Shown piece by piece: positions 710-28,753 of a DNA stretch of 64,000 bases. Source of the stretch: Rubritalea squalenifaciens DSM 18772 (GTDB taxonomy: Bacteria > Verrucomicrobiota > Verrucomicrobiia > Verrucomicrobiales > Akkermansiaceae); contig NZ_FQYR01000003.1 in assembly GCF_900141815.1 (NCBI RefSeq), positions 1 to 64,000 of the forward strand, written 5' to 3'. A program made the position numbers and the translations under genes. The notes under the pieces were generated by a model, which saw only the letters and a program-made list of their open reading frames with translations, did not search any database and had not been told where the DNA came from. Every line of letters begins with the position of its first letter. Position 1 is the first letter of the stretch.

Positions 710-736
710 GTAAGCGCTAAATCATCGACCCTCGGT
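710..736 (+). repeat. IS66-type terminal inverted repeat, tip at 710
   Basis: The sequence from 710 is identical, in inverted orientation, to 302-328. Its interior would lie to the right, yet the right side is the 3' end of a 610-codon gene that ends inside this repeat. Either a deletion adjacent to the IS joined this end to the gene, or the gene is cargo of an IS66-like unit whose other end is not recognisable here. Confidence 0.65.
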
Positions 737-2549: not shown

Positions 2550-4444
2550 GAGGTTTTCTCCTTTCTGCGCAGTGATGCGGCCAACAGATCCTGATGCTGC
2601 CTGATCGAGATGTTTTTAAGTTTTCTCCCGTCTGCATCGCTTATATCGAGTCGCGGGAATTCCATGCTGTTTGAAATGCTTTGGAAAGGGGTTGATGGCG
2701 TCAAGGCTCCATTGTAAAATGAACTAAAGCCCTCCGACCCGTATATAATCTTGGACGGCTTGAAGAATTTGAGCAGCGAACTTGCCTGTTTCATGCCGTC
2801 ATTGATTGCCTTCGCTCTACGACGAGTGGTGACCCGTGCGGCTAGTCTGTGTCCCGGCACGATCATCTGACCGATTGGGCTCTTGGCGGCCTCGCGAAGA
2901 CCGTCAAAGTAAGCGTCCACTTTGGCTATCACCGATTTCACCAAGTTCGAATTTTCCGCAGCTTCATTGAGCAGAGGCGCTGTAGACCCAGGCAGGTTGC
3001 ATGCTTGATAGACCAATTCACCCGTATAAGCGATCTGGAGATCTTCTGATCCGCTTTCGATGCGCGGCAGAAGAGAAAGTAGGAAACGCATGGTGCCAGC
3101 TCCTTCCATGTAGATATGACGGGTCTCGAACATCGCTAAAGCAACGGATTCATCACAAAAGCAGCCAAGCACTTCATCATTAAACTTGTAGTCTGGACAG
3201 AGTTTCAGGAGTTGGAATCCGTATTGTCTGGCTGAACGCTCTGGGGAGAATATGTAGTCAGTGACCAACGTAGAGAGCGTGGCGAGGATGCCCCGCGACT
3301 CATCGCCCGAGTAGCCCGCTCTATTGGAAAACATCGACTCAAGAGCGTAGGGGTTTCGTTCGATTAGATCACTGCAAAGAGACTTAAATTGTTCCTCATC
3401 TGCTCTGTATATCGCCGCAGCTGTTTCTGCAACACGGGCCCAGATCCCTTTGTGTTCATCGGCTATCGGTTGGAGTTCGATTAAAAGGTGACTGAGTGGT
3501 AGCAGATTCTCCGGCGTGAAAGCATCGCCTTCGTTTCTCCAGCCTCGTGCGAGTGAGTCAGCTACAATATATTGCTCGACGGGGACAAGAGCTGAGAATT
3601 CCAAGCTCTTTAGCCATTCGGAGGCCAGGGATAAGCTGGTTGAATCGCATGGTCTGGAGAAGAGCACGCAGACAAGGCGAAGCCCGTCTTCCCGCTCATT
3701 GGCTAATGAGGGGTTTATGTCCCTAAACAACTTGCTGAGGATTGTAGAAGACGGGAGTGACAGGATGATGGTCGTGCGCCACGAGCGAACGAAGAGCGTG
3801 CGGTCTTCTGGGCGTCTGGATTGTCGGAATTTGTTGGAAGTGGCTTCGATGAATTCTGGCGCTGAATCCCGCAGAGTTCCCAAAGCCTGTGCTGCCAGTT
3901 CGATGCCTTTGTCATCCGCAGAATCACGCCATGCTAGAATCGCCTTAACTGCCCGTTGATGGTCAGCTTCGAACCATTTCTCGAAGTAGTCGAACAATGG
4001 ACCGTTCGCCAAGTCTCCGCTGGCTTTCTCCAAGAGCCGAGGGAACCAGGATGTGGTGAATGTATCGGTAAGGGTAAGCAGGAGCGCTGTACCAGGAAAC
4101 AAACGTAAGATCTGAAAGAATGTGCTCTGATCAACAGCTATTAGATTCTCAAGATGTCGGGATCTCTCTTCCTCTTCAAGCTGTGAAAGGTAATGGTTCC
4201 ACAAGTTGCAAAGGAGTATGGAGGTGTCTGGATTCGCCGCCCCCAGCAGAAAGGTGAACCGGTAGAGCTCCTCGTAGGGTGATTCAGCCGTGAACAATAA
4301 AGCCCCGAATTGCTTCAAAAACTTGGGGTCGGATTCGCTCAACCCAAGGCCCTTGCTCGGTAAGTCTTTAGGGATCTGTTGTTGGCTCTTGGGATCCGCT
4401 AGATCGGACTCATTGATGAGCTTGATGAAGGCTGTGGTATCCAT
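2546..4444 (-). CDS. Unrecognised large helical protein
   Basis: A 632-residue soluble protein with no signal peptide, no transmembrane segment and no P-loop or catalytic motif that I can see. It is rich in Leu, Ser, Glu and Arg and looks like an all-helical HEAT/TPR-type scaffold, with a more basic C-terminal tail (HRLAARVTTRRRAKA near residue 530). The ATG at 4444 lies 3 nt after the stop of a 48-codon ORF, and the gene's TGA overlaps the ATG of the next gene. The three ORFs thus form one translationally coupled unit. Placement in an integrative element beside a nuclease-like partner suggests an anti-phage or anti-plasmid role, but this is inference from context alone. Confidence 0.6.
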   Translation of the reverse strand: MDTTAFIKLINESDLADPKSQQQIPKDLPSKGLGLSESDPKFLKQFGALLFTAESPYEELYRFTFLLGAANPDTSILLCNLWNHYLSQLEEEERSRHLENLIAVDQSTFFQILRLFPGTALLLTLTDTFTTSWFPRLLEKASGDLANGPLFDYFEKWFEADHQRAVKAILAWRDSADDKGIELAAQALGTLRDSAPEFIEATSNKFRQSRRPEDRTLFVRSWRTTIILSLPSSTILSKLFRDINPSLANEREDGLRLVCVLFSRPCDSTSLSLASEWLKSLEFSALVPVEQYIVADSLARGWRNEGDAFTPENLLPLSHLLIELQPIADEHKGIWARVAETAAAIYRADEEQFKSLCSDLIERNPYALESMFSNRAGYSGDESRGILATLSTLVTDYIFSPERSARQYGFQLLKLCPDYKFNDEVLGCFCDESVALAMFETRHIYMEGAGTMRFLLSLLPRIESGSEDLQIAYTGELVYQACNLPGSTAPLLNEAAENSNLVKSVIAKVDAYFDGLREAAKSPIGQMIVPGHRLAARVTTRRRAKAINDGMKQASSLLKFFKPSKIIYGSEGFSSFYNGALTPSTPFQSISNSMEFPRLDISDADGRKLKNISIRQHQDLLAASLRRKEKTS

Positions 4445-13228: not shown

Positions 13229-13248
13229 CCGCGTGATAAATCACGCGG
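13229..13248. repeat. Perfect 8-bp inverted repeat at helicase remnant edge
   Basis: CCGCGTGA (13229-13236) and TCACGCGG (13241-13248) are perfect inverted copies around TAAA. They lie within about 50 bp of where helicase similarity begins and could be linked to the event that removed its 5' part. Confidence 0.4.
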
Positions 13249-14288
13249 CGACCTCTGCAACATCAGGTACAGCGCCCGCTACACACCACGCCCCCGCCGA
13301 AGTCGTCTCCCTCGCCCGCCAGATCCCGGAGGACTACGTGGACTTCTTCCTGAGAAGGGTACTGGACATCGACGAGCCGTTCGGAGGTATCCAGGTCCTG
13401 TTCATGGGAGACTTCATGCAGCTTCCCCCGGTATCGTCAGCGGACCACGGATACTTCGACTGGGCGTTCTACTCCCACTCGTGGGTGTCCGCCAACATCA
13501 AGTGCGTGGCACTCACCAAGGTATACAGGCAGGCAGACGGCCCCTTTGTGGAGATGCTCAACCGTATCCGCATGGGAGATCCTCCCACACCCGAGCAATG
13601 GGAGTTGCTGAGAGGATGCCTGGTGCCTGCAGACGAACTGAGCGAGGCCACCTTCATCACCCCGTACAACAGGAAGGTGGACTCCGTGAACCAGTACCAC
13701 CTGGCCAAGCTCCCTGGCGACCCCATCCATATCCCGGCCATATTCGACATACGAGACAACCATATAAGGGGGAACATGACACGAGAGGTGGTTCGCAAAC
13801 AACTGTGCGATACCACGATCATGCGATCCACGTTGTCCCTGAAGATCGGCTGCCGGGTGATGCTGCTGAAGAACGACGTGGCACTGTCCTATGTGAACGG
13901 GTCGCAGGGCATACTGGAGAACATCAACTACGACCAGAGCGAAGAGCGCAAGATCGTATCCCTGACCATCTACCTGGACAGATGTCTGGTGCCGATAACC
14001 CTGGACCAGATCGAGCGTGGCGAGGACCCGCGCAGGGTGACCGTGCACAGGCACACCTCCACCCGAGGCAACCACGAGCCCGAGGAGGACGTGGCGCACG
14101 TGGAGGATCCTGAGACAGGGGAGCTGGTGGGATGGGACGCTGCCATCGAGGAGGTCAAGGACCAGCAGGTGAAGGTGTGTTACTCCGACACCCGCAGCTG
14201 CAGAAAGGCCCTGTTCCGTCCGCTACGCTCGATGGTCGCGGTACGGATACCATCCTCCCCGGGTGGAGAGAGGGTGACGCCATCCTGA
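13233..14288 (+). pseudogene. PIF1-type DNA helicase, truncated at both ends
   Basis: From about codon 20 the 351-codon frame matches the middle of PIF1-family helicases: PFGGIQVLFMGDFMQLPPVS (motif III region), VALTKVYRQ (motif IV), FITPYNRKVDSVN, and LKIGCRVMLLKND followed by YVNGSQG. The N-terminal Walker A and most of Walker B (IDE) are absent, and the C-terminal 'TIHKSQG' motif VI is missing; the end of the frame runs over the antisense 3' end of the BspA-like gene. An enzyme without the ATP-binding site cannot work, so this is a remnant. The ATG given is only the first in frame. Confidence 0.75.
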
Positions 14289-16450
14289 GTCCAGTCGGTC
14301 AGGTTGGTGCTGGTCCACACCTCGTAGGTGATGCCTGGGGTGTCACCCCGGAAGGTTAGTCCAGCTGTGGTCTCGGCCAGCTCGATGCCCGGGAGGTTGT
14401 TGCGGTTGCTTGTGTTTGGGTTGAGCTGGAGCGCGTACTCCATCAGCAGGGTGACCCCGTCCCCGTTGGTGTCCGAATTGAGCGAACTGGTGTAGTCGAC
14501 CCGGTGCTGCAGAAGCCAGCTGGCCGCCGGGTAGGTACTCTGGTCGATTTCCACCTGATTGTACATTACCGTTCCCGGGGCGTCCGGGTATCCAGGTGAC
14601 TGCGTCCACGGCTCGACATCGAACCCGGTGTTACCGCTGAGATAGTAGATGGTGAAGCCCGGACTGTACGCTGTGAAGAAGACCTGTGTCCCGTAGGCCT
14701 CCGGAGCATTCCCGAGGAAGTAGGCGCTCTCCAGGTTTCTACATCCGTCGAAGGTCAGGAACTCGATGCACGTGACCGATGCAGGAAGGACGACACTTTT
14801 CAGCGACGAACATAATTTGAAGGCATAGCTGCCGAGTGTCTCCACTCCACCCGGGATGACGATGTGCTGCAGGTTCTGACACCATTCGAAGGTGCGGTCC
14901 TGGATCGCGGTGATGCCTTCGGACAGGTGTACGGTTTCGAGACTCCAACAATCTTGGAAGGTGGCGTACCCGAGGGTCGTCACGGTGTCCGGCAGATACA
15001 CGGTAGTCAGGAGGAAGCACTTGCTGAAGGCATAGGCGCCCACTGTCTGGACTCCTTCGGGAAGCTCTATACTGGTCAGGCCCTCGCATAACTGGAAGGC
15101 CCCGTATAGAACGCCCTGCAGTCCTCCGGGGAAAGCTATTGAAGTTAGCTTGTGGCTTGTGACGAATGAATCCGAGCCAATGTAGAGTACTCCGGGAGGT
15201 ACGTTGTAGTGTCCTGGTCTGCCGGGCGGGTAGCGTACTAGTGTAGTGGCATCCTTGCTGAACAACACTCCGTCCACGCTCGTGTAGGTGTTGTTCGCCG
15301 GGTCTGTCTGGATGGACAACAGGCTTGAGCAGTTTGTGAAGGCTGATGGCTCAAGGCTGCTGATACTTGAAGGCAGACTGATGGCGACCAGTGAACTGCA
15401 GTCCCGGAAACACCCCGTGAGGATCTCTGTAACGCTCGAAGGGATCGTGATACTAGCCAGGCTGTCGCAGCTGTCGAAGGCGAATTCACCGAGGTAGGAC
15501 ACCGATCCCGGGATGGTGATGCCGGTCAGGTGGGTACAGGAGCTGAAGCTGTGGTCGCTTATGGTCGTAACTCCTGCTGGCACCGTAAAGTTCCCCAGGC
15601 TAGCCAAGCCACCGGGAGCGACGACGAGCTTCTTCATGTCTGCCGTGTAGATGACTCCGTCGACACTCGTATAGCTGGTGTTGCCGGGTTCAAGAACGAT
15701 GGATTGTAAGTTGGGACACCCGGCGAAGGCGGCAGTGGCCAGGGAAGACAGACCGCTCGGCAGTGTTAAGGTCTCCAATAGGGTGCATCCACGGAATGAC
15801 TCCAAACCGATAGAGGCAAGGCTGTCCGGCAGAGTAATGCTGGTGAGGCTGGAGCAGTGTTGGAAGGCCTGGTTCTCGATCACGTCCAGCCCGGCAGGTA
15901 GTGATACGCTCGACAGGCTGGAGCATCCCCGGAAGAGTGATTCGGGGATGGTCGTTATGCCGGATGGGATGGCTATAGAGCTGAGGCTGGTACATCCTGA
16001 GAATGCGCTCGTACCCAAGGATGTCAGATTCTGCGGCAGTATCACGTTATCCAGCAGCGTGCAGTTCGAGAAGGCTCCCAGACCGATGGTCTCTACGGTG
16101 GAGGGCAGTTCTACACCCGTGAGGGCCGGGCAGTTGGAGAAAGCGGTGATGCCTATCGTGGTCACGCCCTCGGGGATGATTACCGAAGTGAGCTGTGTAC
16201 ATCTGTCGAAGGCCTGATAGCCGATGGTCGTGACAGGGAGCCCCTCGATGTCCGCCGGGATGGTCACCGGACCTGACACATTACGCTCGCACAAGGTGAT
16301 GGTCACCGAGGTATCATCGACAAGCTCGTAGGTAAGCGGCCCAATGGTGCCAGCGCGTATGCAAGCAGGAGCCATGGCCAAGATAGCCACCCATGCGCAA
16401 AGCAGGAAGGTCGCGGCAGAACGTAAGGAGTGTGAAGCGGGATGAGTCAT
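14180..16450 (-). CDS. BspA-like secreted leucine-rich repeat protein
   Basis: 756 residues with a signal peptide (hydrophobic AATFLLCAWVAILAMAPACI). Residues ~60-620 are a long run of BspA-type LRR_5 repeats with the recurring pattern IPxGVTTIGxxAFxxCxxL. Two insertions read NTYTSVDGV(I/L), typical of the family. Residues ~655-690 contain an EF-hand-like loop SDTNGDGVTLLMEYALQL, and the final ~80 residues look like a beta-rich verrucomicrobial C-terminal region ending LQLRVSE. Such proteins mediate adhesion or surface interactions. It is on the opposite strand to the helicase remnant and overlaps its 3' frame. It has no operon partner. Confidence 0.8.
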   Translation of the reverse strand: MTHPASHSLRSAATFLLCAWVAILAMAPACIRAGTIGPLTYELVDDTSVTITLCERNVSGPVTIPADIEGLPVTTIGYQAFDRCTQLTSVIIPEGVTTIGITAFSNCPALTGVELPSTVETIGLGAFSNCTLLDNVILPQNLTSLGTSAFSGCTSLSSIAIPSGITTIPESLFRGCSSLSSVSLPAGLDVIENQAFQHCSSLTSITLPDSLASIGLESFRGCTLLETLTLPSGLSSLATAAFAGCPNLQSIVLEPGNTSYTSVDGVIYTADMKKLVVAPGGLASLGNFTVPAGVTTISDHSFSSCTHLTGITIPGSVSYLGEFAFDSCDSLASITIPSSVTEILTGCFRDCSSLVAISLPSSISSLEPSAFTNCSSLLSIQTDPANNTYTSVDGVLFSKDATTLVRYPPGRPGHYNVPPGVLYIGSDSFVTSHKLTSIAFPGGLQGVLYGAFQLCEGLTSIELPEGVQTVGAYAFSKCFLLTTVYLPDTVTTLGYATFQDCWSLETVHLSEGITAIQDRTFEWCQNLQHIVIPGGVETLGSYAFKLCSSLKSVVLPASVTCIEFLTFDGCRNLESAYFLGNAPEAYGTQVFFTAYSPGFTIYYLSGNTGFDVEPWTQSPGYPDAPGTVMYNQVEIDQSTYPAASWLLQHRVDYTSSLNSDTNGDGVTLLMEYALQLNPNTSNRNNLPGIELAETTAGLTFRGDTPGITYEVWTSTNLTDWTQDGVTLSPPGEDGIRTATIERSGRNRAFLQLRVSE

Positions 16451-16628
16451 GGAGCCAGTATCTTGAACGTGCCATGAACCGTTGTTGGTGTCCTACGAGC
16501 GAGACTACTTCCATATGCGATCTACGACACGCGGATATTCATAGGGAGGCTTCCTCCGGGTGTCGATGAGATAAGGTACGAGGGGCTGGTGACAATATCG
16601 CTCGAGGCAGTCTGTATTTTTGGGTAAC
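16451..16628. other. Divergent intergenic region
   Basis: Spacer between the BspA-like gene (minus) and the 78-codon plus-strand gene. It must carry two divergent promoters. GGAGGCTTCCTCC at 16543-16555 is a compact palindrome that could be an operator. Nothing else is supported. Confidence 0.3.
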
Positions 16629-16865
16629 ATGCTGACCATACAGGATGCCGAAATATGCGTATCTACTCATGGGCTTCTCGATACGCTCGCTGGTTGTAAA
16701 GTAGCTGCCGGGCACAATCCTGACGATATAGACCCTAGTGACTTCGTGCTTATCTTCGACAAAGAAGAACACCACGAGGTCTACCTCAAGTCCGAGTTTC
16801 TCCGGGATAATTGTGGCACTGAAGAATCCGGCGGTGCTAAGCAGCATCTATTAGAGGGTCAATAG
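16629..16865 (+). CDS. 78-aa acidic protein of unknown function
   Basis: Starting at the ATG at 16629 (a TTG three codons upstream is possible) the product begins MLTIQDAEICVSTHGLLDTL and contains PDDIDPSDFVLIFDKEEHHE, then VYLKSEFLRDNCGTEE and ends LLEGQ. No family is recognised. The last ~31 codons recur 281 bp downstream with the same frame and stop position. The 13 or so differences are concentrated at third codon positions, which supports this frame as coding rather than the opposite-strand frame. A large hairpin begins right at the stop codon. Confidence 0.5.
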   Translation: MLTIQDAEICVSTHGLLDTLAGCKVAAGHNPDDIDPSDFVLIFDKEEHHEVYLKSEFLRDNCGTEESGGAKQHLLEGQ

Positions 16866-17034
16866 GTTACGAGGACGATAAAAAGTATATATGCGTACGC
16901 GCGTGCAACTATGATTTTTCTAGTTTGGCGTGCGTGCGTATATAGGAATCTATCGTCCTTGTAACTATCTAAGGTTCTAGAATATCCTGCTTAGCACCGC
17001 CACATTTTCTGATTAAGGACACTGTACTCGGTGA
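16770..17034 (+). repeat. Large structured tandem element, copy 1
   Basis: A ~265-bp unit repeated once, 281 bp downstream. It contains nested inverted repeats: an outer stem GGCGGTGCTAAGCAG (16830-16844) with its exact complement at 16987-17001, an inner stem of 15 bp (16866-16880 with 16951-16965, one G-T pair), and a central imperfect stem TATATATGCGTACGCGCG against CGTGCGTGCGTATATA around a ~17-nt loop. Folded, it gives one ~170-nt hairpin directly after the 78-codon gene. The conserved core is almost identical between copies. It could be a structured RNA, a mobile palindromic unit or a protein-binding cruciform. Confidence 0.7.
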
Positions 17035-17050
17035 TATAAGGTTTCACTGG

Positions 17051-17314
17051 CACCACAAGGTCTACCTCAAGTCCGAGTTTCTCCGGGATAACTGTGGTAC
17101 CGAAGAAACCGGCGTCGCACAACAGGATCTCTTAGAGGGTCAATAAGTTACAAGGACGATAAAAAGTATATATGCGTACGCGCGTGCAACTATGATTTTT
17201 CTAGTTTGGCGTGCGTGCGTATATAGGAATCTATCGTCCTTGTAACTCTCTAAGGGTCTAGGACATCAGGTTGTGCGGCGCCACATTTCCTGATTAAGGA
17301 CATTGTACCCGGAA
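17051..17314 (+). repeat. Large structured tandem element, copy 2
   Basis: Same layout as copy 1. The inner stem (17147-17161 with 17232-17246) is a perfect 15-bp match, repairing the G-T pair of copy 1. The outer stem is GGCGTCGCACAAC (17111-17123) paired with GTTGTGCGGCGCC (17270-17282). This differs from the copy 1 stem at many positions on both arms yet still pairs, with one wobble. That is covariation and points to selection for the folded form. The 5' part also repeats the coding tail of the 78-codon gene with the stop kept. Confidence 0.7.
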
Positions 17315-17330
17315 AACCATCTGGTACAAT
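17303..17330 (+). promoter_or_regulatory. Promoter overlapping an inverted repeat
   Basis: TTGTAC (17303-17308) and TACAAT (17325-17330) with a 16-bp spacer form a good sigma-70 promoter. The same bases make a 7-bp inverted repeat, TTGTACC with GGTACAA. The next ATG is at 17334, only 4 nt after the -10 box, so the transcript would start at or just after the start codon (leaderless) or the true start is further in. Confidence 0.5.
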
Positions 17331-17333
17331 AGG

Positions 17334-17594
17334 ATGAAATCTCACCCCCGGTTTCTTTCCAGGCAGATGCCAGGTAGCCGACGAATCACTATTCTCTCGA
17401 GCGAACTCCTCTCACCCGGACTCCACGAACTGGAGCTGGAGATCAGGCCTGACCTTGTAGCGTCCCGTATCTGTGTAAGGGCACAGCTAGAGCCCGAGCG
17501 GATGACAGTAAGAGGGGACGGGGAGTGGTGGTACTGCGTCGAGCGAGCGTGTCTGGTACCCCACGTGCTGAGCGTGCATATAGCAGAAAAATAA
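17334..17594 (+). CDS. 86-aa hypothetical protein
   Basis: A basic N-terminus (MKSHPRFLSRQMPGSRR) is followed by a beta-prone stretch LHELELEIRPDLVASRICVR and GEWWYCVERACLVP. No signal peptide, membrane segment or known motif is visible. The close promoter and the lack of a leader leave the start uncertain; the ATG at codon 12 is an alternative. It may be a small island-encoded regulator or effector, but this cannot be told from the sequence. Confidence 0.45.
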   Translation: MKSHPRFLSRQMPGSRRITILSSELLSPGLHELELEIRPDLVASRICVRAQLEPERMTVRGDGEWWYCVERACLVPHVLSVHIAEK

Positions 17595-17628
17595 TGGCAG
17601 CCCCTTCTGTCGTCTGTCTGGGGCTGCC
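17591..17628 (-). terminator. Terminator of the AlpA-like gene
   Basis: GGCAGCCCC (17596-17604) and GGGGCTGCC (17620-17628) form a 9-bp GC-rich stem. On the minus strand it is followed by ATTATTTTT, so it ends transcription of the AlpA-like gene. On the plus strand no T-run follows. Confidence 0.7.
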
Positions 17629-17646
17629 GTGTTGTGCCATCTTTCT

Positions 17647-17826
17647 CTATGGCTGGTTGTTTGCTAATCCCTCGATGTCTTCTTCCCGGTAGCGTATCGA
17701 GCGAACACCTACCAATATGGGCTGGAGTTGTCCACGCTGCTCCATCCTCTTGAGTGTGGAGATGGATACTCCCAGTCGTTGAGAAGCATGCCTGCGAGTG
17801 ATCAGCTTTGTTTTGTCTTTGTACAT
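17647..17826 (-). CDS. AlpA/excisionase-like DNA-binding protein
   Basis: A 59-residue protein from the ATG at 17826 to TAG at 17647. It has the winged-helix pattern of the MerR-like excisionase/AlpA group: LITRRHASQRLGVSISTLKR, then MEQRGQLQPILVGVRSIRYR and EEDIEGL. Such proteins direct integrase or activate excision genes. It lies two genes from the integrase in the same element, so an excision or recombination directionality role is plausible. No Shine-Dalgarno site is visible before the ATG. Confidence 0.7.
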   Translation of the reverse strand: MYKDKTKLITRRHASQRLGVSISTLKRMEQRGQLQPILVGVRSIRYREEDIEGLANNQP

Positions 17827-17995: not shown

Positions 17996-18889
17996 ATGAG
18001 AGCTAGTAAAACAGACGAACAACATGCCTTGATAAAGTTGAGAGAGCTTCTGAAGTTGTCACAGCGTAATCTGGTAGCGGGGTTTTCAGGCCCCTATATC
18101 GGGTCGGTCGAGCGAGGAAGAGCGAAGGTTTCTAGAAAACTTTCCGAAGCTATACGGAAAGAGCATGGCGCATGGATTCAGCCCGGCTTTGATGTCACGG
18201 ATGTGTATGAGGCTTTCGGGCCGGAGTGGGAGCAGGAGCAGCATGTAGTGAAGAAAATGTCCGAAGGTAAGGTATTGTTTACCGGCGATTACAAGTCTGG
18301 CGAGGACCTGAGGGCTGCACTGCAGAGGGAGGAGGAGGGGCTAGCAGGTAAGAAAAGTGTGCACGCCGTCCATGTGATGCCCGGCAAGCTCACCTTGAAG
18401 AGGTACAGCGAGGACTCCAAAGCCGAATACTTGAGCCATCGCATGCGCCACGAGGAAGATCCAAAGAGGCACAGACTTGAGAAACAAAAACTCAATGTGC
18501 TGGTGGAGATGTTGCTGGATATGTCTCCCGACTATGAAAGCGAGCTGAAGATGTACCGCAGCCTGTCGACAGCGATAGAGCAGGTCATAGCCAAGCATGA
18601 TCTTAAAGACAAGGTGAAGGCGGCATACGAGGCTCGCATCCAGTCCTTGCTGGACCTCTTTCCCGGCTTTGAAGGCGCAAAGAAGGTTAATGTAATAGCG
18701 GTTACAAAGCTCATGCATAGGCAGAAAACTCCGATGGATACTCCTCCTAAGAGCGATAGCTTTATCGATGCTCTAGTAACTCCGCAGGACTTCGAGTTAT
18801 TCAAGGACTGGTCCCGGGAGGCGATGGACAAGGAAACATGGCTAAGAATCTATGACGAGGCTTCAGAGGCTGCGAGAGGAGAGGACTAG
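17996..18889 (+). CDS. HTH-domain protein of unknown function
   Basis: 297 residues. The first ~60 look like a divergent HTH: LIKLRELLKLSQRNLVAGFS, then GPYIGSVERGRAKVSRKLSE. The rest is charged and helical (lysine/glutamate-rich, for example KSGEDLRAALQREEEG), with no catalytic motif recognised. It starts at an ATG inside GTCATGAG and has no strong ribosome-binding site. A perfect inverted repeat lies upstream. Its stop overlaps that of the convergent integrase by 4 bp. It is probably an island regulator; confidence in the DNA-binding part is moderate. Confidence 0.55.
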   Translation: MRASKTDEQHALIKLRELLKLSQRNLVAGFSGPYIGSVERGRAKVSRKLSEAIRKEHGAWIQPGFDVTDVYEAFGPEWEQEQHVVKKMSEGKVLFTGDYKSGEDLRAALQREEEGLAGKKSVHAVHVMPGKLTLKRYSEDSKAEYLSHRMRHEEDPKRHRLEKQKLNVLVEMLLDMSPDYESELKMYRSLSTAIEQVIAKHDLKDKVKAAYEARIQSLLDLFPGFEGAKKVNVIAVTKLMHRQKTPMDTPPKSDSFIDALVTPQDFELFKDWSREAMDKETWLRIYDEASEAARGED

Positions 18890-20208
18890 AACTCTGGTAC
18901 AATACGCTTTTTCTTGTCCACGTAGTAGCTCGAAGTGATCTGGATATTACTGTGTCTAAGGAATAGTGAAGCGGCGTGGATGCCGTGCTCAGCCGCGATC
19001 ACTGATCCGACTTCCTTGCGCAGCTCATGGATTGGCTTCTTGGCGGTGACACCTTGCATCCTGAGCCAGTTTCTCAGGTGGTCGAGTGATTTGCGGCAGC
19101 GGTAACGGCGGTGCGTATCGTTGTTTGTAGGGGCTGATTCTGAGTCGATCACAAAAATACCAGAGGATTGTTTCTTGTACTCGGCTAATAAGGTTACTGT
19201 GCTATCGGACAAGTCGATGGCTCCCTCAGAATCATCAGATTTTGGCTGATGGTACGCGGTCGCCTGCACATGAAGTGTACAGGAGTCGAGATCGATGGAG
19301 GACCACAATAAGTGGTCGATTTCGCTTACCCGGAGACCGCAGCGTAGCGCGAGTTGCAGAATCAGATAGGCGTTCGGGTGAGATGTCCTAAGCTGTCTGT
19401 CGGCCAAGTCTAAGATGCGTCGCGCATCGATCTTGCTCCTGTATCGAGTCGTCCCGGCGTTAAGCTGTGAAAGTTCGGCGAAGGGGAGGGGCGTAGGTAG
19501 CTCTATCAGGTTTTCTAAAAGAGGGAGTAGCTTACGGCTGAACAAAGCCTTGCTGTTCCTGATACAGCTGTTGGCGGTGGTAATGGCGCTCTTCCTAGCT
19601 GAGGCATCTTGGGAGTGACGGCTGATGTAGTCTGCGCGCCAGGCGGATACGCGCTCAGGGGTGATGAGTGATAGCTCTACTTGGTCAACACTGGCTACCC
19701 ATTTTTTGTGAGCAGGTCCATAAAAGCGTTTGGCGATGGAGAGTCCTTCTAGTTCCGATACGATGCGCCTGAAGGCCCTGACATAGGTGCTGATAGTTTC
19801 AGGACGTGCAGTACTCAGCCTGCTGGCGTGCTCTATCAGGTCTCCGACAGTTTTACCTTTGGTGCTGGTGTCCGGTGTCTGCTTGTCAGCCAGATCTGGA
19901 CGGTGTGTCTCCAGGGCGTGTAACCAACCATAGTCCACGATGTCCTGATAGATGTCCCTGGCCTTGCGTGCAGCCAACTCTTTGTCGGGTGACTCAAGAC
20001 TGAAGTATTCGCGCCTGCCCTTGTACGAGAAACGAACAGAATAGTTGGGGCATGATGCTCCGCGTGCCTTGGGTTTGTATATCTTCTCCTTCCAGTACGC
20101 GATGCTCGTCTTCGATTGTGTGGCCGGGCGGCGGACTGGGGCCGGGTCGCTGATCTGCTTGCCATTTGCTTGCCACTTTTGAAGGGTCTGGTGTGGTATT
20201 TTCTGCAT
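18886..20208 (-). CDS. Tyrosine recombinase / integrase
   Basis: 440 residues. A SAM-like core-binding part (~residues 110-260) is followed by the catalytic domain: LALRCGLRVSEIDHLLW with the first Arg, IHELRKEVGS with the His-x-x-Arg pair, LRHSNIQ with the second His, and the tyrosine nucleophile in SSYYVDKK (Y428 or Y429). All key residues are present. Residues ~60-80 (YSVRFSYKGRREYFSL) look like an arm-binding domain. It lies next to a tRNA-Tyr 3' fragment, the usual attachment site arrangement, so it should integrate and excise the element lying to the left. GGTGATCATG occurs twice between gene and tRNA and may be arm sites. Confidence 0.9.
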   Translation of the reverse strand: MQKIPHQTLQKWQANGKQISDPAPVRRPATQSKTSIAYWKEKIYKPKARGASCPNYSVRFSYKGRREYFSLESPDKELAARKARDIYQDIVDYGWLHALETHRPDLADKQTPDTSTKGKTVGDLIEHASRLSTARPETISTYVRAFRRIVSELEGLSIAKRFYGPAHKKWVASVDQVELSLITPERVSAWRADYISRHSQDASARKSAITTANSCIRNSKALFSRKLLPLLENLIELPTPLPFAELSQLNAGTTRYRSKIDARRILDLADRQLRTSHPNAYLILQLALRCGLRVSEIDHLLWSSIDLDSCTLHVQATAYHQPKSDDSEGAIDLSDSTVTLLAEYKKQSSGIFVIDSESAPTNNDTHRRYRCRKSLDHLRNWLRMQGVTAKKPIHELRKEVGSVIAAEHGIHAASLFLRHSNIQITSSYYVDKKKRIVPEF

Positions 20209-20316: not shown

Positions 20317-20375
20317 GTAGACTGTAAATCTGCTCACGAAAGTGTACACTGGTTCGAATCCAGTCCTGCCCACCA
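20317..20375 (+). other. tRNA-Tyr 3' fragment, attachment site (att)
   Basis: The stretch contains an anticodon arm with CTGTAAA loop (GTA anticodon, Tyr), a class II variable arm (CACGAAAGTG), a T-arm (ACTGGTTCGAATCCAGT) and an acceptor strand CCTGCCCA with CCA to 20375. The matching 5' half (a D-arm and GGGCAGG) is absent upstream, so this is not a full tRNA. It marks the right boundary of an integrative element; an intact tRNA-Tyr is expected at the left end outside the window. Confidence 0.8.
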
Positions 20376-20381
20376 CCTTTC

Positions 20382-20418
20382 AAAAAAGGACTCATGAGTT
20401 GCTCATGAGTCCTTTTTT
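20382..20418. terminator. Bidirectional terminator after the tRNA fragment
   Basis: A perfect 17-bp stem, AAAAAAGGACTCATGAG with its complement CTCATGAGTCCTTTTTT, around TTG. The T-run works on either strand. It probably is the native terminator of the tRNA-Tyr gene. Confidence 0.85.
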
Positions 20419-20553
20419 GTTGTCCCACCCAGTCCAGGCTGTGAGCAGCTCTCGGCGGCGGAGTCTTTCATTGAGTGTATCACTACTGGTCCAAATACCG
20501 TCGTGTAATGATTTTGAAGGATGAGGGAATAAAGCTGGGGCGCATTTCTCTCA

Positions 20554-21658: not shown

Positions 21659-22972
21659 ATGAAGAAATCAGCGTTCATTCTAACCAGTCTGGGAATCGCG
21701 AGTTTATTATCCTCTTGCCAAAATACCTCACCCACGTTGGTTGAACCCATCGGGGGATTGGGAGTCAAGGGGGCTGATACCAGCGAAGCGAGGGCCTATA
21801 CAGTGTCCTCAAGTGCTAGTGTAGATGACCTGATTGACTTGATGGAAAAGCATCAGCCGGCCTTGATCTCTGCTGCCGCAGAAGTAGAGCGGCTTCGTGC
21901 CCAGTCCGTGGTAGATGCATCTCTGCCAGACCCAATGGTTAAATTGACTGCAGGTGATATGGCCGAGACCGCCGCAGGTAAAGTCGAGGCGATGATAGGC
22001 GTGGAGCAGAAAATTCCTCATCTGGGTAAGCTCAGTGCACTAAAAGGCCGCACCCTGGAACAGGTGAAAGCGGCGTCAGCCGCACGGCAAACGATATCCT
22101 TGAAGCTGGCCTATCAGTTACGTAATGCCTACTGGAGTTACTATCAGGACCATCAGAGCATCGGGATTCACCAGCAGAACAAGGCGCTCCTGAATGACCT
22201 CCGCCAGAGTGTGGAGGCCAGGGTTGCCGCTGGTGGAGCAGCTCAAGAGGATCTGTTGAGAATCTCTACGGAGATTGCCAAAGTAGATCGTGAGATTATC
22301 CAGCTACGGAGAAATCTGGCAACTTATCGTGCTACACTGAATACCCTGCTGTTCAGGCCTCCGTCTTCGAATCTTCCGGCCCCGAGGTATAGTGGGGCTA
22401 CGCTGAGTAACCAGGAAATGCACGTGGTAGCGAATAGCCATCCGGAAATTCGCCAGGCACTTGCCCAGATGAGGGCTGCGGAGCAGAGCATTCGCTTGGC
22501 AAAGCTCCAGCGATCACCTGATTTTGTGGCTGGTCTGAGCTATGGTGCGGTCTCTTCTTCTGGTTTGGCGCCTTCCGCCAATGGCCGTGATCAAGTCATG
22601 GGGACCATTGGAATGAGCATTCCTCTCTGGGAAAAGAAAAACCGGGCTGTGGAGGCTAGTGCACGCTCTGCCTTGGATGCGGCGAAAGCTGGTACCAGTG
22701 TGGTCAGGCAAAATTTGCGATCTGAAGCGGCCTCTGCTGCAGCGGACATTTCCGCTCAGCAGGAGCTCATCAGTCTGTTTGACAAGCGGATCATTCCCGA
22801 CAGCAAGCAGGCCTTTGAATTGTCTACGACGGCTTACTCGAACGGTAAGTCATCCTTCACGGACGTGATCGATACCTGGCGGCAGCTGCTGAACTATGAG
22901 CTACAGCAAGTGGCTAACAAAGCTTCTTTGGGGAAAGCGACCGCGCGATTCAAGTACGCAACGAATAGTTAA
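21659..22972 (+). CDS. TolC/CusC-like outer-membrane efflux lipoprotein
   Basis: 437 residues with lipoprotein signal (SLGIASLLSSC, Cys20). Two long helical repeats typical of outer membrane efflux proteins follow: one with ALISAAAEVERLRAQ and one with HPEIRQALAQMRAAEQSIRL; the latter resembles the conserved 'hP......A.....A' of the family. It forms the trimeric outer-membrane channel of a tripartite pump. It is 24 bp upstream of the adaptor gene, and AAAGGAG precedes that gene, so they are co-transcribed. Confidence 0.85.
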   Translation: MKKSAFILTSLGIASLLSSCQNTSPTLVEPIGGLGVKGADTSEARAYTVSSSASVDDLIDLMEKHQPALISAAAEVERLRAQSVVDASLPDPMVKLTAGDMAETAAGKVEAMIGVEQKIPHLGKLSALKGRTLEQVKAASAARQTISLKLAYQLRNAYWSYYQDHQSIGIHQQNKALLNDLRQSVEARVAAGGAAQEDLLRISTEIAKVDREIIQLRRNLATYRATLNTLLFRPPSSNLPAPRYSGATLSNQEMHVVANSHPEIRQALAQMRAAEQSIRLAKLQRSPDFVAGLSYGAVSSSGLAPSANGRDQVMGTIGMSIPLWEKKNRAVEASARSALDAAKAGTSVVRQNLRSEAASAAADISAQQELISLFDKRIIPDSKQAFELSTTAYSNGKSSFTDVIDTWRQLLNYELQQVANKASLGKATARFKYATNS

Positions 22973-22996
22973 CATACCAAATTTAAAGGAGTAATC

Positions 22997-24940
22997 ATGA
23001 AACGATTATTGAAACTAGTACCAATCCTTCTGGTGCTTGGTGTCACCTTTTACGTCGGCTGGTGGATCGGTCATCCTGGATCGGAAAAGGCTGACCAGAC
23101 GGAGAAGGCGAGTGATACCTGGTGGACATGCTCCATGCATCCTCAAATCAAGCAGCCCAGCCCCGGCTTATGCCCGATCTGCAATATGGACCTTATCCCG
23201 ATGAGTGGAGGGGGAGAAGAGGATGGACCTACGACACTCACGGTAAGTGAGTCGACCGCGAAGGCCCAGAACATCAGGATTAGCCCCGTAGTAGCTCGTC
23301 ATGCAGCGCGAAACATCGATTTGGTAGGAACTGTTGCCGCGGACGAGAGAACCTTGTCACGCGTGACTGCCAGGGTATCCGGCCGGATAGATCGCTTGTT
23401 TGTAGACTACACAGGCGTGCCAGTGCGTAAGGGCGATCATTTGGCGAGTATCTATTCTCCGTCACTCTTAGTGGCTCAGCAGGAGCTGATACAGGCCAAG
23501 AGAAACCTCGATGCAGGATCAGGTGCGAATGCTTCATTGCAAAGTACTCGTCAGGCGCTTTATCGCGCTGCTCGCGAAAAGCTCAGGCTTCTGGAGCTGA
23601 CAGAGGATCAAATCAATGACATCGAAAAACAAGCTAGCCCGAGTGACCACCTGACCTTGTATGCTCCACAGTCTGGTATCGTGTTAGACCTGAATGTCAG
23701 GGAGGGAGACTATATCCAGACTGGACAGGTTCTGTTCTCTCTGGCGGATCTATCGAGCGTGTGGGTGAATTTGGAGGCCTATGAGCAGGATTTGCCATGG
23801 CTGCGGTTTGCTCAAGAAGTGAGCTTCACGACTCAGGCTGCTCCAGGAGAGACATTTCAGGGTCGCATCGCTTTTATCGATCCGGTTGTGGATCCGGCAA
23901 CCCGCACTGCTCGAGTCAGGGTCAATGTCAAAAACCCTGATGGGCTGCTGAAGCCGGGGATGTTTGTCCGCGGTGCGGTGACTTCTACTCTAACAGGTAA
24001 AGGTTATCTGCTGGAAGCCTCACTGAAGGGCAAGTGGGTCTCACCAATGCATCCGGAAATCATCAAGGATGGTCCGGGTAAATGCGATATCTGTGGCATG
24101 GATTTGGTTCCAGCTGAGCAGCTTGGATTCCGAATGGATGAGGGGGGTGCCAAAGCTCCATTATTGGTGCCAGCATCTGCGGTGCTGCGGACTGGGGGTC
24201 GCGCTATTGTCTACAAGAGGCTCAAGCCTGAAGGAGAGTCTCTTAAATTCCAAGGGACTGAAATTATCTTGGGACCAAGAGTGGGGGATTCATACATCGT
24301 AGCGGGTGGTCTCAGCGAAGGAGATTTTGTGGTCACGCAAGGAGCCTTCAAGATCGACTCTGAGCTGCAGATCAGAGCTAAGCAGAACATGATGTCCATG
24401 CCTGCATCCTATGCAGGACCTCCTGTACCCAGCAAAGCCTTGGATAAGGGCCAGCTCAAGGCTCTCAATGATCTACTGGTGACGTACATGAGTCTGACAC
24501 GTCATTTAGCCCACGACCGTGAGGCAGAAGCTGCCAAGCTCATCCCGGATTTGATTAAACAAGGTCAGGTCATGAAACAACCAGCCATCCAATCAGCTAC
24601 CCGGGCTTTTGAGGGAAAGCGTAACAGGGATCAAATCACCCAGGGATTGCCTGCGCTCACAGCTGCGTTGGCGGATGTTGTGCGGAACCGTGCAGCCGAC
24701 CAGTTAGAGACTCCCGTTTATCTTGTCCATTGCCCGATGGCGATGAATGACAAAGGGGCAGACTGGCTACAAATCAATCAAGAGGTGGAAAATCCTTACT
24801 TCGGATCAGAGATGTTCAGCTGTGGCTTGGTGAAGGCTCAGCTCACCGTGAAGGGGGATAAATCGGCACAAGGCCAGGACTCTGAACCCCAGGTTGAACC
24901 CAATCGACCAGAAGGGGGACATGAAGGGCACAATCACTAA
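22997..24940 (+). CDS. CusB-like RND periplasmic adaptor with two metal-binding modules
   Basis: 647 residues, long for CusB (~400). After a single N-terminal membrane anchor (LVPILLVLGVTFYVGWWI), residues ~42-69 form a heavy-metal-binding domain (TCSMHPQI then CPICNMDLIPM). The lipoyl/hairpin and beta-barrel parts follow (ENIRISP-like strand, VTARVSGRID, QSGIVLDLNVREGDYIQTG, VWVNLEAYEQDL). A second metal module (SPMHPEIIKDGPGKCDICGM, ~residues 346-366) is inserted after the barrel, then a membrane-proximal part. The C-terminus is a DUF3347 domain (LVTYMSLTRHLA and CPMAMNDKGADWLQ). It links the pump to the TolC-like channel and probably passes copper or silver to it. Confidence 0.9.
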   Translation: MKRLLKLVPILLVLGVTFYVGWWIGHPGSEKADQTEKASDTWWTCSMHPQIKQPSPGLCPICNMDLIPMSGGGEEDGPTTLTVSESTAKAQNIRISPVVARHAARNIDLVGTVAADERTLSRVTARVSGRIDRLFVDYTGVPVRKGDHLASIYSPSLLVAQQELIQAKRNLDAGSGANASLQSTRQALYRAAREKLRLLELTEDQINDIEKQASPSDHLTLYAPQSGIVLDLNVREGDYIQTGQVLFSLADLSSVWVNLEAYEQDLPWLRFAQEVSFTTQAAPGETFQGRIAFIDPVVDPATRTARVRVNVKNPDGLLKPGMFVRGAVTSTLTGKGYLLEASLKGKWVSPMHPEIIKDGPGKCDICGMDLVPAEQLGFRMDEGGAKAPLLVPASAVLRTGGRAIVYKRLKPEGESLKFQGTEIILGPRVGDSYIVAGGLSEGDFVVTQGAFKIDSELQIRAKQNMMSMPASYAGPPVPSKALDKGQLKALNDLLVTYMSLTRHLAHDREAEAAKLIPDLIKQGQVMKQPAIQSATRAFEGKRNRDQITQGLPALTAALADVVRNRAADQLETPVYLVHCPMAMNDKGADWLQINQEVENPYFGSEMFSCGLVKAQLTVKGDKSAQGQDSEPQVEPNRPEGGHEGHNH

Positions 24941-24964
24941 TTTGAATATTCACGAAACCAATTC

Positions 24965-27900
24965 ATGAGTTCATTGATACAGTTCTGCCTGCGGCAAAAG
25001 CTTGTCGTCATTCTCTTGTTGGCCTTTTTCGTAGGCTGGGGAATACGTGTGGCTCCGTTTGACTGGGAGACAAAGATCATTCCTCGCGATCCTGTGGCGG
25101 TCGACGCCATTCCGAATCTGGGCGATAACCAACAGATCGTCTTTACGCCCTGGTCCGGGCGTTCACCGAAGGATGTAGATGATCAGATTACTTACCCGAT
25201 GACGGTTGCCTTGATGGGGGTTCCGGGAGTGAAAGAGGTGAGGTCGTATTCCTATTTCGGTTTCTCCTCAATCTACCTGGTCTTTGAGGAGGATATTGAT
25301 TTCTATTGGTCCCGCTCCCGGGTTCTGGAGAAACTCAATTCCTTGCCCAGCGGAACCTTACCTGAGGGGGCGACCCCGGCACTCGGCCCGGATGCTACCG
25401 GACTGGGGCAGATATTCTGGTATACGCTGGAGGGACTGGATCCTGATGGAAATAGAGTGGGAGGCTGGGACCTGGATGAACTGAGAGCCATCCAAGACTG
25501 GCAAGTACGGTACGCTCTTCAGGGAACACCGGGAGTCGCGGAAGTTTCCTCCATTGGGGGATATGTGCGGGAGTACCAGGTGGATATAGACCCGGACGCC
25601 TTGAGGTCTCAGAAAATCACTTTGGTACAGGTGGCCAATGCAGTGCGAGCCTCGAACAAGGAGACGGGTGCTCGTAACCTCTCGATCAATGGCGTGGAGT
25701 ATATCATCCGCGGAGTAGGTTATGTCAAAGAGCTTGATGACATCCGCAAGGCGGTCGTGGCCTCTCGCAACGGGACTCCCATCACTGTAGGGGATGTGGC
25801 CAGTGTCTCGCTGGGGCCGGCACAGCGCAGAGGCGCTCTGGATAAGAATGGCCAAGAAGCAGTGGGAGGAGTGGTAGTAGCCCGCTTTGGAGAGAACCCA
25901 CTGGAGGTTATTCAAAAGACGAAAGCGAATATCGAGAATCTGACCAGCGGCTTACCTCAGCGTGCTGTAATCCTGTGGGATAAAACAACACCAATGGAAG
26001 TCCGTGAGTTTTTTGCTGAACTGGAGCTTCCTGAGTCTGCGAGTGAGAAGGAAAAGACCACTCAGCTTACGAAGTATCTTCAGAGTCATCCTCGCGATCA
26101 ATGGCCTGAGTGGGCGACACTTTCCAAGGTGACCCTGGTGCCATTCTATGACCGCACGGGATTGATTGGTGAAACACTGGGGACTCTCAATGATGCTCTC
26201 TATCAGCAGATCCTGATTACGATCATTGTGGTGGTTATCATGGTCCTGCATTTGCGCTCGTCCATATTGATCAGTGCCATGCTGCCCTTGGCCGTGCTGA
26301 TTACATTTATCGCGATGAAGCTCTTTGGAGTGGATGCCAATGTCGTTGCGCTCGCAGGGATTGCGATCGCTATTGGTACCGTGGTGGACATCGGGATTGT
26401 GCTCACGGAAAATATTTTGAAGCATCTGAAGGAAGCTGATCCTGATGAATCCAGACTGGAGGTAATCCAACGAGCGTCCACAGAAGTAGCCTCAGCGGTG
26501 ACAACTTCCGTGGCCACCACGGTGACCTCATTCCTCCCAGTGTTTCTTTTGACTGGAGAAAATGGCAGGTTGTATCGACCTCTGGCGTTTACCAAGACCT
26601 TCGCTCTGAGTGCGTCTTTGATTGTAGCCATTACGATTATTCCACCGGTGGCGCACATGCTCATGCGGAGGTGGTCAAAGCAGAAAGAGTCGGAAAAACG
26701 GCCAAGCTTGATTGGCAAGATCATGAAGTCCAGATCGACTAATCTAGGGATCTCGATAGCTGTTGCTATGGTCGTAGGGTGGCTCTTGGCTGGCGACTGG
26801 GCCCCACTGGGGCTGGACAGGGCACATCTGTCTAATTTCTTCTTTGTATTCCTGATCGTAGGCTCGCTGCTGTTCTTCTTCTGGTTATTCCAGAAGGTCT
26901 ATGTGCGGGTGCTTCGCTGGTGCTTGGGAAACAAAGTTTTGTTCCTCAGTGTACCGATGGTTCTGCTGATGCTGGCTTTAGTGATCTGGAAAGGCTTTGC
27001 TCCTGTGGTGAGCTGGATCCCAGGTGGAACAGCCGTTGCTGAGAGTACTTTTGGGAAAGATCTTCAGAATCATTTCCCGGGGCTGAAGAACGAGAATAGG
27101 CCAAGACTGGATGAGGGGTCATTCCTACTTATGCCAACTACCAGTACTCATGCTGATATTGGGGAAGCCATGGATGCCCTGCGCCAGTTGGATGAAGCAG
27201 TCTCGAAAATTCCAGAGGTGACTTTAGTTGTCGGCAAGTTGGGGCGGGCTGAATCAGCGCTCGATCCAGCGCCTATATCCATGTTCGAAAACGTGATTCA
27301 GTATGCACCTGAGTTCAAACAGGACGAGCATGGGCGGCCGATCAAGTACCGCTACGATGAAGACACCGAATCCTATGTTTATAGTGATCAAGGAGAGTTG
27401 ATTCCAGATGAGTCAGGTAGACCATTCCGCCAATGGAGGCCACACATCAAGTCGCCTGACGACATCTGGCGTGAGATCGAGAAAGCGGCCTTTGTGCTCG
27501 GGACGACTTCCGCGCCTAAGCTCATGCCGATTGAAACGCGTCTAGTCATGCTGCAGACAGGCATGAGGGCTCCAATGGGGCTTAAGATCAAAGGCCCAGA
27601 TCTGGATACCATCGAGAAAGTGGGAGTTGAGATTGAAACCTTGCTCAAAGACTCGGGTGTCGATGGTCTGAATCCAGCCACGGTGATTGCCGACAGGATT
27701 GTTGGTAAGCCTTACCTGGAGGTTATTCCTGATCGCGAAGCTGCCGCCCGTTATGGGCTGAATGTGGCAGACATTCACGATGCCCTGGAGATGGCTGTGG
27801 GAGGCAAACCAGTGACGACAACCATCGAGGGGAGAGAGCGTTTCTCTGTCCGGGTCCGCTACATGAGGGAAAAGAGGGACAACATTGAAGATCTCCAACA

Positions 27901-28753
27901 GGTGCTGCTCACCGCTCAAGATGGAGCTCTCATTCCTCTCTCTCAGATTGCACGTGTGCATTATGTGAGAGGTCCGCAAATGATCAAAAGTGAGGACACC
28001 TTCCTGACTGGCTATGTGACCTTTGATAAGATGGACGACGCAGCTCAGCTCGATGTTATCGAGCGGGTGAAGGATTATCTGGAGAAGATGCAGGAAGAGC
28101 GACGTTTAATCCTTCCACCGGGAGTGTCCTATCGCTTTGCAGGCTCCTATGAGGAGAAGCAAGAGTTCGACCGGAACATGCGGTTGATCTTACCAGTGAC
28201 ACTTTTTGTGATCTTTGTGATCCTTTATCTGCAGTTCCGTTCGGTACCGACAACATTGACACTGCTGACCGCGATTGCCGTGGCCTGCTCAGGAGGTTTC
28301 CTCATGCTTTGGTTGTATGCACAGCCTGGCTTCCTTGATATCAATCTGTTTGGAGCTAACCTGCGTGATCTGTTTCAAGTGAGAGAGGTGGCATTATCCA
28401 CGGCCGTATGGGTGGGCTTCATCGCATTGTTTGGTATTGCCACGGATGATGGTGTGGTCATCACTACCTATCTGAAGCAGTCTATCGAGAAGCATAGCCC
28501 CAGTGACAAAGAGGGGATCAGAAAAGCTGTGGTAGAAGCCGGAGCACGACGTGTAAGGCCTTGTCTGATGACCACCGCGACCACTCTGCTGGCGCTCCTG
28601 CCGGTTCTGACCTCAACCGGGCGTGGCTCAGATATCATGCTGCCGATGGCGATTCCGGTATTTGGTGGAATGACTATCGAACTGCTGACAATGTTTGTCG
28701 TCCCGACGCTCTACTGCTGGCAGAAAGAGCTGAGATTGAAGCGACAGAAATAA
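24965..28753 (+). CDS. CusA/CzcA-family heavy-metal RND pump
   Basis: 1262 residues, about 200 longer than CusA (~1050). It has the HME-RND layout of two repeats: N-terminal helix, porter domain with TPWSGRSPKDVDDQITYPMT, then helices TM2-6 containing AIAIGTVVDIGIVLTEN, and a second set with GIATDDGVVITTYLKQ. The proton-relay Asp/Glu pattern is present though altered from the usual GAMVDAAIVMIEN. Extra sequence lies in the first half (FAELELPESASEKEKTTQLT) and around residue 780-850. It exports metal ions, probably Cu/Ag, from periplasm or cytoplasm. It is 24 bp after the adaptor gene, so it is the third member of one tripartite operon. Confidence 0.9.
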   Translation: MSSLIQFCLRQKLVVILLLAFFVGWGIRVAPFDWETKIIPRDPVAVDAIPNLGDNQQIVFTPWSGRSPKDVDDQITYPMTVALMGVPGVKEVRSYSYFGFSSIYLVFEEDIDFYWSRSRVLEKLNSLPSGTLPEGATPALGPDATGLGQIFWYTLEGLDPDGNRVGGWDLDELRAIQDWQVRYALQGTPGVAEVSSIGGYVREYQVDIDPDALRSQKITLVQVANAVRASNKETGARNLSINGVEYIIRGVGYVKELDDIRKAVVASRNGTPITVGDVASVSLGPAQRRGALDKNGQEAVGGVVVARFGENPLEVIQKTKANIENLTSGLPQRAVILWDKTTPMEVREFFAELELPESASEKEKTTQLTKYLQSHPRDQWPEWATLSKVTLVPFYDRTGLIGETLGTLNDALYQQILITIIVVVIMVLHLRSSILISAMLPLAVLITFIAMKLFGVDANVVALAGIAIAIGTVVDIGIVLTENILKHLKEADPDESRLEVIQRASTEVASAVTTSVATTVTSFLPVFLLTGENGRLYRPLAFTKTFALSASLIVAITIIPPVAHMLMRRWSKQKESEKRPSLIGKIMKSRSTNLGISIAVAMVVGWLLAGDWAPLGLDRAHLSNFFFVFLIVGSLLFFFWLFQKVYVRVLRWCLGNKVLFLSVPMVLLMLALVIWKGFAPVVSWIPGGTAVAESTFGKDLQNHFPGLKNENRPRLDEGSFLLMPTTSTHADIGEAMDALRQLDEAVSKIPEVTLVVGKLGRAESALDPAPISMFENVIQYAPEFKQDEHGRPIKYRYDEDTESYVYSDQGELIPDESGRPFRQWRPHIKSPDDIWREIEKAAFVLGTTSAPKLMPIETRLVMLQTGMRAPMGLKIKGPDLDTIEKVGVEIETLLKDSGVDGLNPATVIADRIVGKPYLEVIPDREAAARYGLNVADIHDALEMAVGGKPVTTTIEGRERFSVRVRYMREKRDNIEDLQQVLLTAQDGALIPLSQIARVHYVRGPQMIKSEDTFLTGYVTFDKMDDAAQLDVIERVKDYLEKMQEERRLILPPGVSYRFAGSYEEKQEFDRNMRLILPVTLFVIFVILYLQFRSVPTTLTLLTAIAVACSGGFLMLWLYAQPGFLDINLFGANLRDLFQVREVALSTAVWVGFIALFGIATDDGVVITTYLKQSIEKHSPSDKEGIRKAVVEAGARRVRPCLMTTATTLLALLPVLTSTGRGSDIMLPMAIPVFGGMTIELLTMFVVPTLYCWQKELRLKRQK

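Follow-up and report, generated by a model that had tools for sequence, protein, structure and literature searches.

Two large hairpins lie in tandem in the DNA analysed here (64,000 nucleotides of Rubritalea squalenifaciens DSM 18772, hereafter the window), and their outer stems differ between the copies at many positions but remain paired. The first-pass annotation of this DNA took the pattern as compensatory change and concluded that the folded form is likely selected. The question raised by the locus is whether selection for the fold, or some other process, gave rise to paired changes of this kind.

The hairpins themselves, which had been placed in two units of about 265 bp lying 281 bp apart, are real. 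The units (16770-17031 and 17051-17312) are 262 nt each, are 89% identical and have a start-to-start step of 281 bp. Each carries gene tail, hairpin and 3' flank, in agreement with the claim that the tail of a small gene was duplicated along with the hairpin. The features concerned are as follows.

16620..16865, + strand: small orphan ORF, 78 aa from ATG 16629 or 81 aa from TTG 16620
16770..17031, + strand: unit copy 1 (gene tail, hairpin, 30-nt 3' flank)
16830..17001, + strand: hairpin 1, 172 nt; outer stem 16830-16844 with 16987-17001
16866..16965, + strand: conserved core of hairpin 1 (15-bp stem, internal loop, 17-bp stem, apical stem-loop); 1 difference from core 2 in 100 nt
17051..17312, + strand: unit copy 2; 31-codon tail with no ATG, GTG or TTG after the in-frame TAA at 16970
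17111..17282, + strand: hairpin 2, 172 nt; outer stem 17111-17123 with 17270-17282
17147..17246, + strand: conserved core of hairpin 2
17334..17594, + strand: 86-aa ORF directly downstream of the hairpins; codon score -0.11 (low)

Inside the outer stem of each hairpin comes an internal loop that holds a short helix; further inwards follow a 15-bp stem, then a 7x6 internal loop, and finally a 17-bp stem with the apical stem-loop. The outer stem has 15 pairs in copy 1 and 13 in copy 2, one of them U.G; the inner 15-bp stem is perfect in copy 2 and contains one G.U in copy 1. The predicted pairing was as first described for both stems, including the divergence of the outer stem between copies that nevertheless stay paired. 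The 17-bp stem, which is rich in wobbles (four G.U pairs), and the apical stem-loop lie deeper in the hairpin and were absent from the earlier description. RNA folding gave minimum free energies of -94.4 kcal/mol for copy 1 and -97.4 kcal/mol for copy 2 (stretches of 193 and 196 nt, slightly longer than the hairpins), with z = -10.05 and -11.0, respectively, and 0 of 200 shuffles as good in each case. These are the two longest inverted repeats in the window (arms at most 250 apart). The statement that the hairpin directly follows the stop codon of the small gene was wrong: the 5' side of hairpin 1 spans the last 11 codons of the ORF, from GGC at 16830 to the stop TAG at 16863-16865, which sits where the internal loop meets the inner stem.

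The unit copies differ at 28 of 262 columns, distributed as 8/90 in the flanks, 12/30 in the outer stem, 7/42 in the loops between and 1/100 in the core. Five of the 13 outer-stem pairs common to both copies have been changed on both sides and still pair, and none of the 13 is broken; copy 2 has lost the two innermost pairs of the outer stem. Because only 22 of 300,000 random placements of five changes per arm kept all 13 pairs, the co-change of the outer arms is real and is not due to chance. That part of the earlier inference stands. The step from co-change to selection is weakened, since the stem outruns the flanks, transversions are in excess and template switching would explain the pattern. 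Covariation analysis gave five co-changed pairs, a result reached by 15 of 500 shuffles and about the least that two sequences with five varying pairs allow; because no homologue was found, this covariation comes from two paralogous copies.

Plain compensatory evolution would slow a stem and would favour transitions through G.U. The outer stem, in contrast, changed faster than the flanks (12/30 versus 8/90, p = 2.6e-4; P = 4.5e-6 for at least 12 of 30 at the flank rate), and 8 of its 12 changes are transversions, compared to 1 of 8 in the flanks (p = 0.028), all of these being rough figures that rest on only eight flank changes. A transversion was needed on both sides in three of the five replaced pairs (G-C to U.G, U-A to A-U and A-U to C-G, copy 1 to copy 2). 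These double transversions count against point mutation, because single-step G.U intermediates do not give them. When every stem hit was modelled as instantly compensated, at least five changed pairs arose with P = 0.055, and when pairs and transversions were taken jointly, hit-and-compensate by point mutation gave P of about 0.0009, or 0.011 with smoothed rates, values that are again rough given the eight flank changes.

We consider it most probable, at roughly 0.45, that the locus is a tandem quasi-palindrome which was homogenised by template switching and is perhaps transcribed as a 3'-end hairpin, a reading derived from sequence. In an island that carries an integrase, a small orphan gene has a long quasi-palindrome at its 3' end, and this would have been duplicated once in tandem with the 281-bp step. 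The ancestral outer arms would have been imperfect inverted repeats, the 5' arm resembling that of copy 1 now and the 3' arm that of copy 2 now; they are not polarisable, because no outgroup was found. After the duplication, a template switch at the replication fork would have copied the 5' arm of copy 1 onto its 3' arm; in copy 2 the direction would have been the opposite, with the 3' arm as template for the 5' arm. Each copy would thereby have been left with a near-perfect but different outer stem, and a later C-to-T change would have produced the U.G pair in copy 2. As the four aligned arms read, two template-switch events and one point mutation would account for all twelve outer-stem changes. 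In copy 1 the arms agree over 15 positions and in copy 2 at 12 of 13, and mismatches lie directly inside; this is a continuous tract of mutually complementary arm bounded by mismatches, as looked for in a template-switch tract. If the small gene is transcribed, its + strand would give two very stable hairpins at and after the 3' end, which we infer to act as an mRNA 3'-end or stability element. It counts against this scenario that two independent homogenisations are needed, both ending in good stems, and that at least five changed pairs alone are not very rare (the P of 0.055 above), the case resting on the addition of the transversions.

Template switching between hairpin arms has been reported to leave such compensatory patterns in RNA genes (PMC8794818), and several neighbouring amino-acid replacements have been reported where the arm is coding (PMC8604942). 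Homogenised inverted repeats share with the present locus multi-base, tract-like compensatory changes that make the arms identical and that can alter codons. The present locus differs in lying on a bacterial island, in consisting of a tandem pair of paralogues in which the events would have run in opposite directions, and in that no outgroup was found. The coded tails of the two copies read GGAKQH and GVAQQD. The locus is filed here as a putative new instance of a template-switch homogenised inverted repeat, which may also act as RNA where the small gene ends; as a duplicated hairpin with rewritten arms it is a neat and probably modest case.

Folding of the two strands favoured the + strand, which is co-directional with the small gene: minimum free energies for copies 1 and 2 were -91.4 and -95.5 kcal/mol on the + strand compared to -74.9 and -75.9 kcal/mol on the - strand. 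The + strand was thus better by 16.5 and 19.6 kcal/mol, and by 18 kcal/mol for the copy 1 core alone. Seven G.T were found against one A.C in the core register columns 42-91 (p = 0.035); over all register columns there were 11 G.T and 5 A.C (p = 0.105), a weak strand bias. The core changed less than the flanks (1/100 versus 8/90, Fisher p = 0.014), although its near-identity could come from gene conversion between the copies and not from constraint. The near-fixed core and the better + strand fold leave moderate evidence for a possible function of the hairpins.

Counting further against the main reading, no sigma-70-like promoter was detected upstream of the small ORF on the + strand in a scan for that promoter type, and the stems are followed by ACATTTTC and ACATTTCC, neither of which is a T-run. 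An intrinsic terminator was rejected, the T-run being absent and neither hairpin being listed by a terminator scan that takes loops of 3-8 only. A known Rfam family was also rejected, with 0 matches at the gathering threshold in the whole window; a lax search of 16500-17700 returned only 10 sub-threshold hits (best E 0.21), 8 of them to microRNA models. RNA 3'-UTR and terminator hairpins resemble the present structure in being stable + strand hairpins that overlap the stop codon of a small gene, but the hairpin here is far longer than an intrinsic terminator stem, lacks the T-run and is duplicated. The RNA repeats of type III toxin-antitoxin systems likewise form tandem arrays of structured units with a small ORF behind them, on mobile islands; they are short, however, compared to the 281-bp units found here, and the 86-aa ORF downstream belongs to no Pfam, NCBIfam, PHROGs or PADLOC family. 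No literature on a hairpin layout of this type was found.

Lack of homologues had been named in the first-pass annotation as evidence against its reading, and none that was convincing emerged from the genomes, Rfam, phages and plasmids searched. The unit has no copy beyond the tandem pair in its own genome (17 contigs, 96.7% complete), where a search for further copies had been advised. No relative of the hairpin was found by DNA search of 57 other related genomes, in phage and plasmid DNA, or by an exact viral pattern search. A covariance model (R1) detected nothing beyond the pair in 385 other genomes of the order, 259 of the family and 386 of the phylum, these being overlapping samples (386, 260 and 387 genomes including its own) scanned with stricter filters that lose weak matches.

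Inverted-arm patterns were matched at 63 genome loci and 17 viral loci, and all 80 were scored with R1. Eight of the 80 gave matches at E up to 10, three of them nominally significant: L048 from Alistipes (50.4 bits, E 1.5e-8), L036 from Bacteroidetes (31 bits, E 6.6e-4) and L050 from Bacteroidales (24.5 bits, E 0.023). All three were rejected as homologues, since core identity was at most 14 nt in the four loci compared and lay mostly in letters that the pattern required; L048 and L036 are, in addition, long near-perfect palindromes that score on both strands. At face value the three count against a lack of homologues, and they are the nearest leads if their rejection is not accepted. On the Alistipes contig (L048:411-502) the near-perfect palindrome extends about 40 nt inward and 49 nt outward of the AGGACGATA arms, and it could be an assembly fold-back. 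A pattern match from Verrucomicrobiales (L076) lies between two genes and gave no R1 match. On a contig of Bacillus sp. SG-1 (L047:4755-5352), three inverted-arm pattern matches stand about 200-300 bp apart, with no R1 match at E up to 10.

The genomic island that surrounds the hairpins also carries a gene for a tyrosine integrase, one that resembles excisionase genes and the 3' fragment of a tRNA-Tyr.

17647..17826, - strand: excisionase / MerR-like HTH small protein
18886..20208, - strand: tyrosine integrase of the island
20319..20425, + strand: tRNA-Tyr 3' fragment with following hairpin; direct repeat of the intact tRNA-Tyr on contig C8

The tRNA-Tyr fragment matches contig C8 (6688-6795, L137) at 99 of 108 positions, the first 64 being identical, and to judge by this similarity the repeat is the probable attachment site of the island; ARAGORN found no whole tRNA in the window. 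The window begins at the first base of contig C3 and takes in only one end of the island; the distance between the hairpins and the 3' end of the integrase gene is 1.6 kb. At E 1e-40 or better, related integrases were present in 53 of 268 other genomes of the order. No hairpin as extreme was found in six longer stretches around such integrases (L138-L143), five of which surround integrases also having a short locus; the 30 short loci (L095-L124, L095 being the integrase of the own genome) have flanks of no more than about 1.5 kb, slightly too short to include an equivalent position. The most extreme values in the hairpin scan were those of the hairpins in this window (-7.4, -5.3 and -5.1 sd), followed by L141 (-4.4 sd).

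A structured RNA under selection, with point changes in the stem compensated since the fold is needed and the core fixed by a sequence-specific partner, is possible but on the whole doubtful. It is consistent with the five co-changed and no broken pairs, with the P of 0.055 obtained if every hit is compensated, with the near-invariant core and with the + strand advantage of 16-20 kcal/mol, but it would have to accommodate a stem that is faster and not slower than the flanks, double transversions in three of five pairs, two uncompensated changes in the 3' arm of copy 2 and the lack of a convincing homologue in the genomes, phages and plasmids searched. Should the fold be selected, the locus would represent a 172-nt hairpin RNA, outside every Rfam family, that belongs to a bacterial genomic island. 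It is unlikely that the locus is an inert palindrome or the remnant of a fold-back, without function and with its pairing kept by mutation alone. The orphan status of the unit in its genome fits this explanation, as does a copy 2 tail with no standard start codon, and template switching would explain the arms; the low rate of change in the core and the lean of the core wobbles to one strand argue against it, unless both came from gene conversion. A more elaborate proposal, also quite unlikely, is that the island carries a new RNA whose 100-nt core is fixed and whose outer stems are deliberately divergent and unit-specific (orthogonal, each hairpin folding on itself); this RNA would overlap and control the end of the small gene or form the RNA part of a defence or immunity module.

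Very unlikely is a folded single-stranded DNA site that would serve island recombination, replication or transfer, attC-like with unit-specific stems. The setting beside the integrase of a tRNA-Tyr-associated island suggests such a site, as do the repetition of gene tail and hairpin as a unit and the fold of copy 1 as single-stranded DNA (z = -7.88, copy 1 alone having been folded as DNA); the six longer stretches around related integrases, in contrast, hold no equally extreme hairpin. Integron attC sites are bounded by boxes with the consensus RYYYAAC ... GTTRRRY, and these are absent from both strands of 16780-17050 and 17061-17331. According to PMC2727003, attC sites have AAC/GTT ends and a length of 57-142 nt, a range exceeded by the 172 nt found here. 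No integron integrase scored over the TIGR02249 cut-off in the genome; there were 5 weaker matches, as general tyrosine recombinases give, and 14 of 14 control genomes also gave weak matches with none over the cut-off. What the locus shares with attC sites is an imperfect palindrome that closes a small gene, recurs together with the gene end and keeps its stems paired although they differ; unlike an attC site, it has no R boxes, is longer and is conserved in its inner core and not at its ends. Identity with attC was rejected on boxes, length and integrase. A mobile fold-back element (MITE) was rejected as well, the genome having no copy beyond the pair and inspection by eye revealing no duplication on either side of the hairpin. 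In a test for a retron, no reverse transcriptase match was found among the 19 window proteins scanned with Pfam, a subset of the ORFs. Homogenisation by template switching is the reading retained, and the locus provides a compact warning: compensatory change between two copies is usually taken as a sign of a selected RNA fold, and template switching explains it here at least as well.

The small ORF had no match in Pfam, NCBIfam, PHROG or PADLOC, its search against 58 genomes returned only itself and the copy 2 tail, and no relatives were found among viral contigs, genome contigs, plasmids and phages. Its codon score of 0.087 is below the right-frame median (0.12) and close to the 90th percentile of wrong-frame windows (0.09), about one in ten of which match it; an overlapping antisense ORF (16539-16847) scored 0.073. 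Third codon positions hold 8 of the 13 differences in the shared coding stretch (p = 0.035), and 5 of the 13 lie in the rewritten stem. By these sequence measures it is plausible that the small ORF is coding. The 86-aa ORF at 17334..17594 had no relatives in 58 genomes or viral contigs and may not be a gene. Single-sequence fold predictions of the two small ORFs reached a mean pLDDT of 45 and 44, and because these values are too poor the predicted folds are unfit for a fold search. That the 3' arm could have arisen by convergence on the gene tail, read in minus-strand translation, was considered and dropped, the similarity outside the stem being slight by eye.

Other genes in the window were also recorded. 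A 297-aa gene had no relatives in 288 genomes of the order or in plasmids. Two adjacent proteins of 610 and 632 aa (717-4444, - strand) have no Pfam match and were assigned by PADLOC to OloB (E 6.8e-28) and OloA (E 1.4e-17); we take them to be a likely Olokun-type defence pair on the same island, and no literature on Olo defence proteins was found. At 13233-14288 (+ strand) there is a Pif1/Dda-like helicase fragment whose match to the Pfam PIF1 profile begins at position 120 of 223; its N-terminal part is apparently missing, and it is possibly a remnant in the island. A 756-aa BspA-type leucine-rich-repeat protein (14180-16450, - strand) adjoins the small gene and the hairpins. Just outside the tRNA fragment, three ORFs (21659-28753, + strand) resemble by eye an outer-membrane efflux protein, a membrane-fusion protein and a 1262-aa RND pump of the heavy-metal efflux type.
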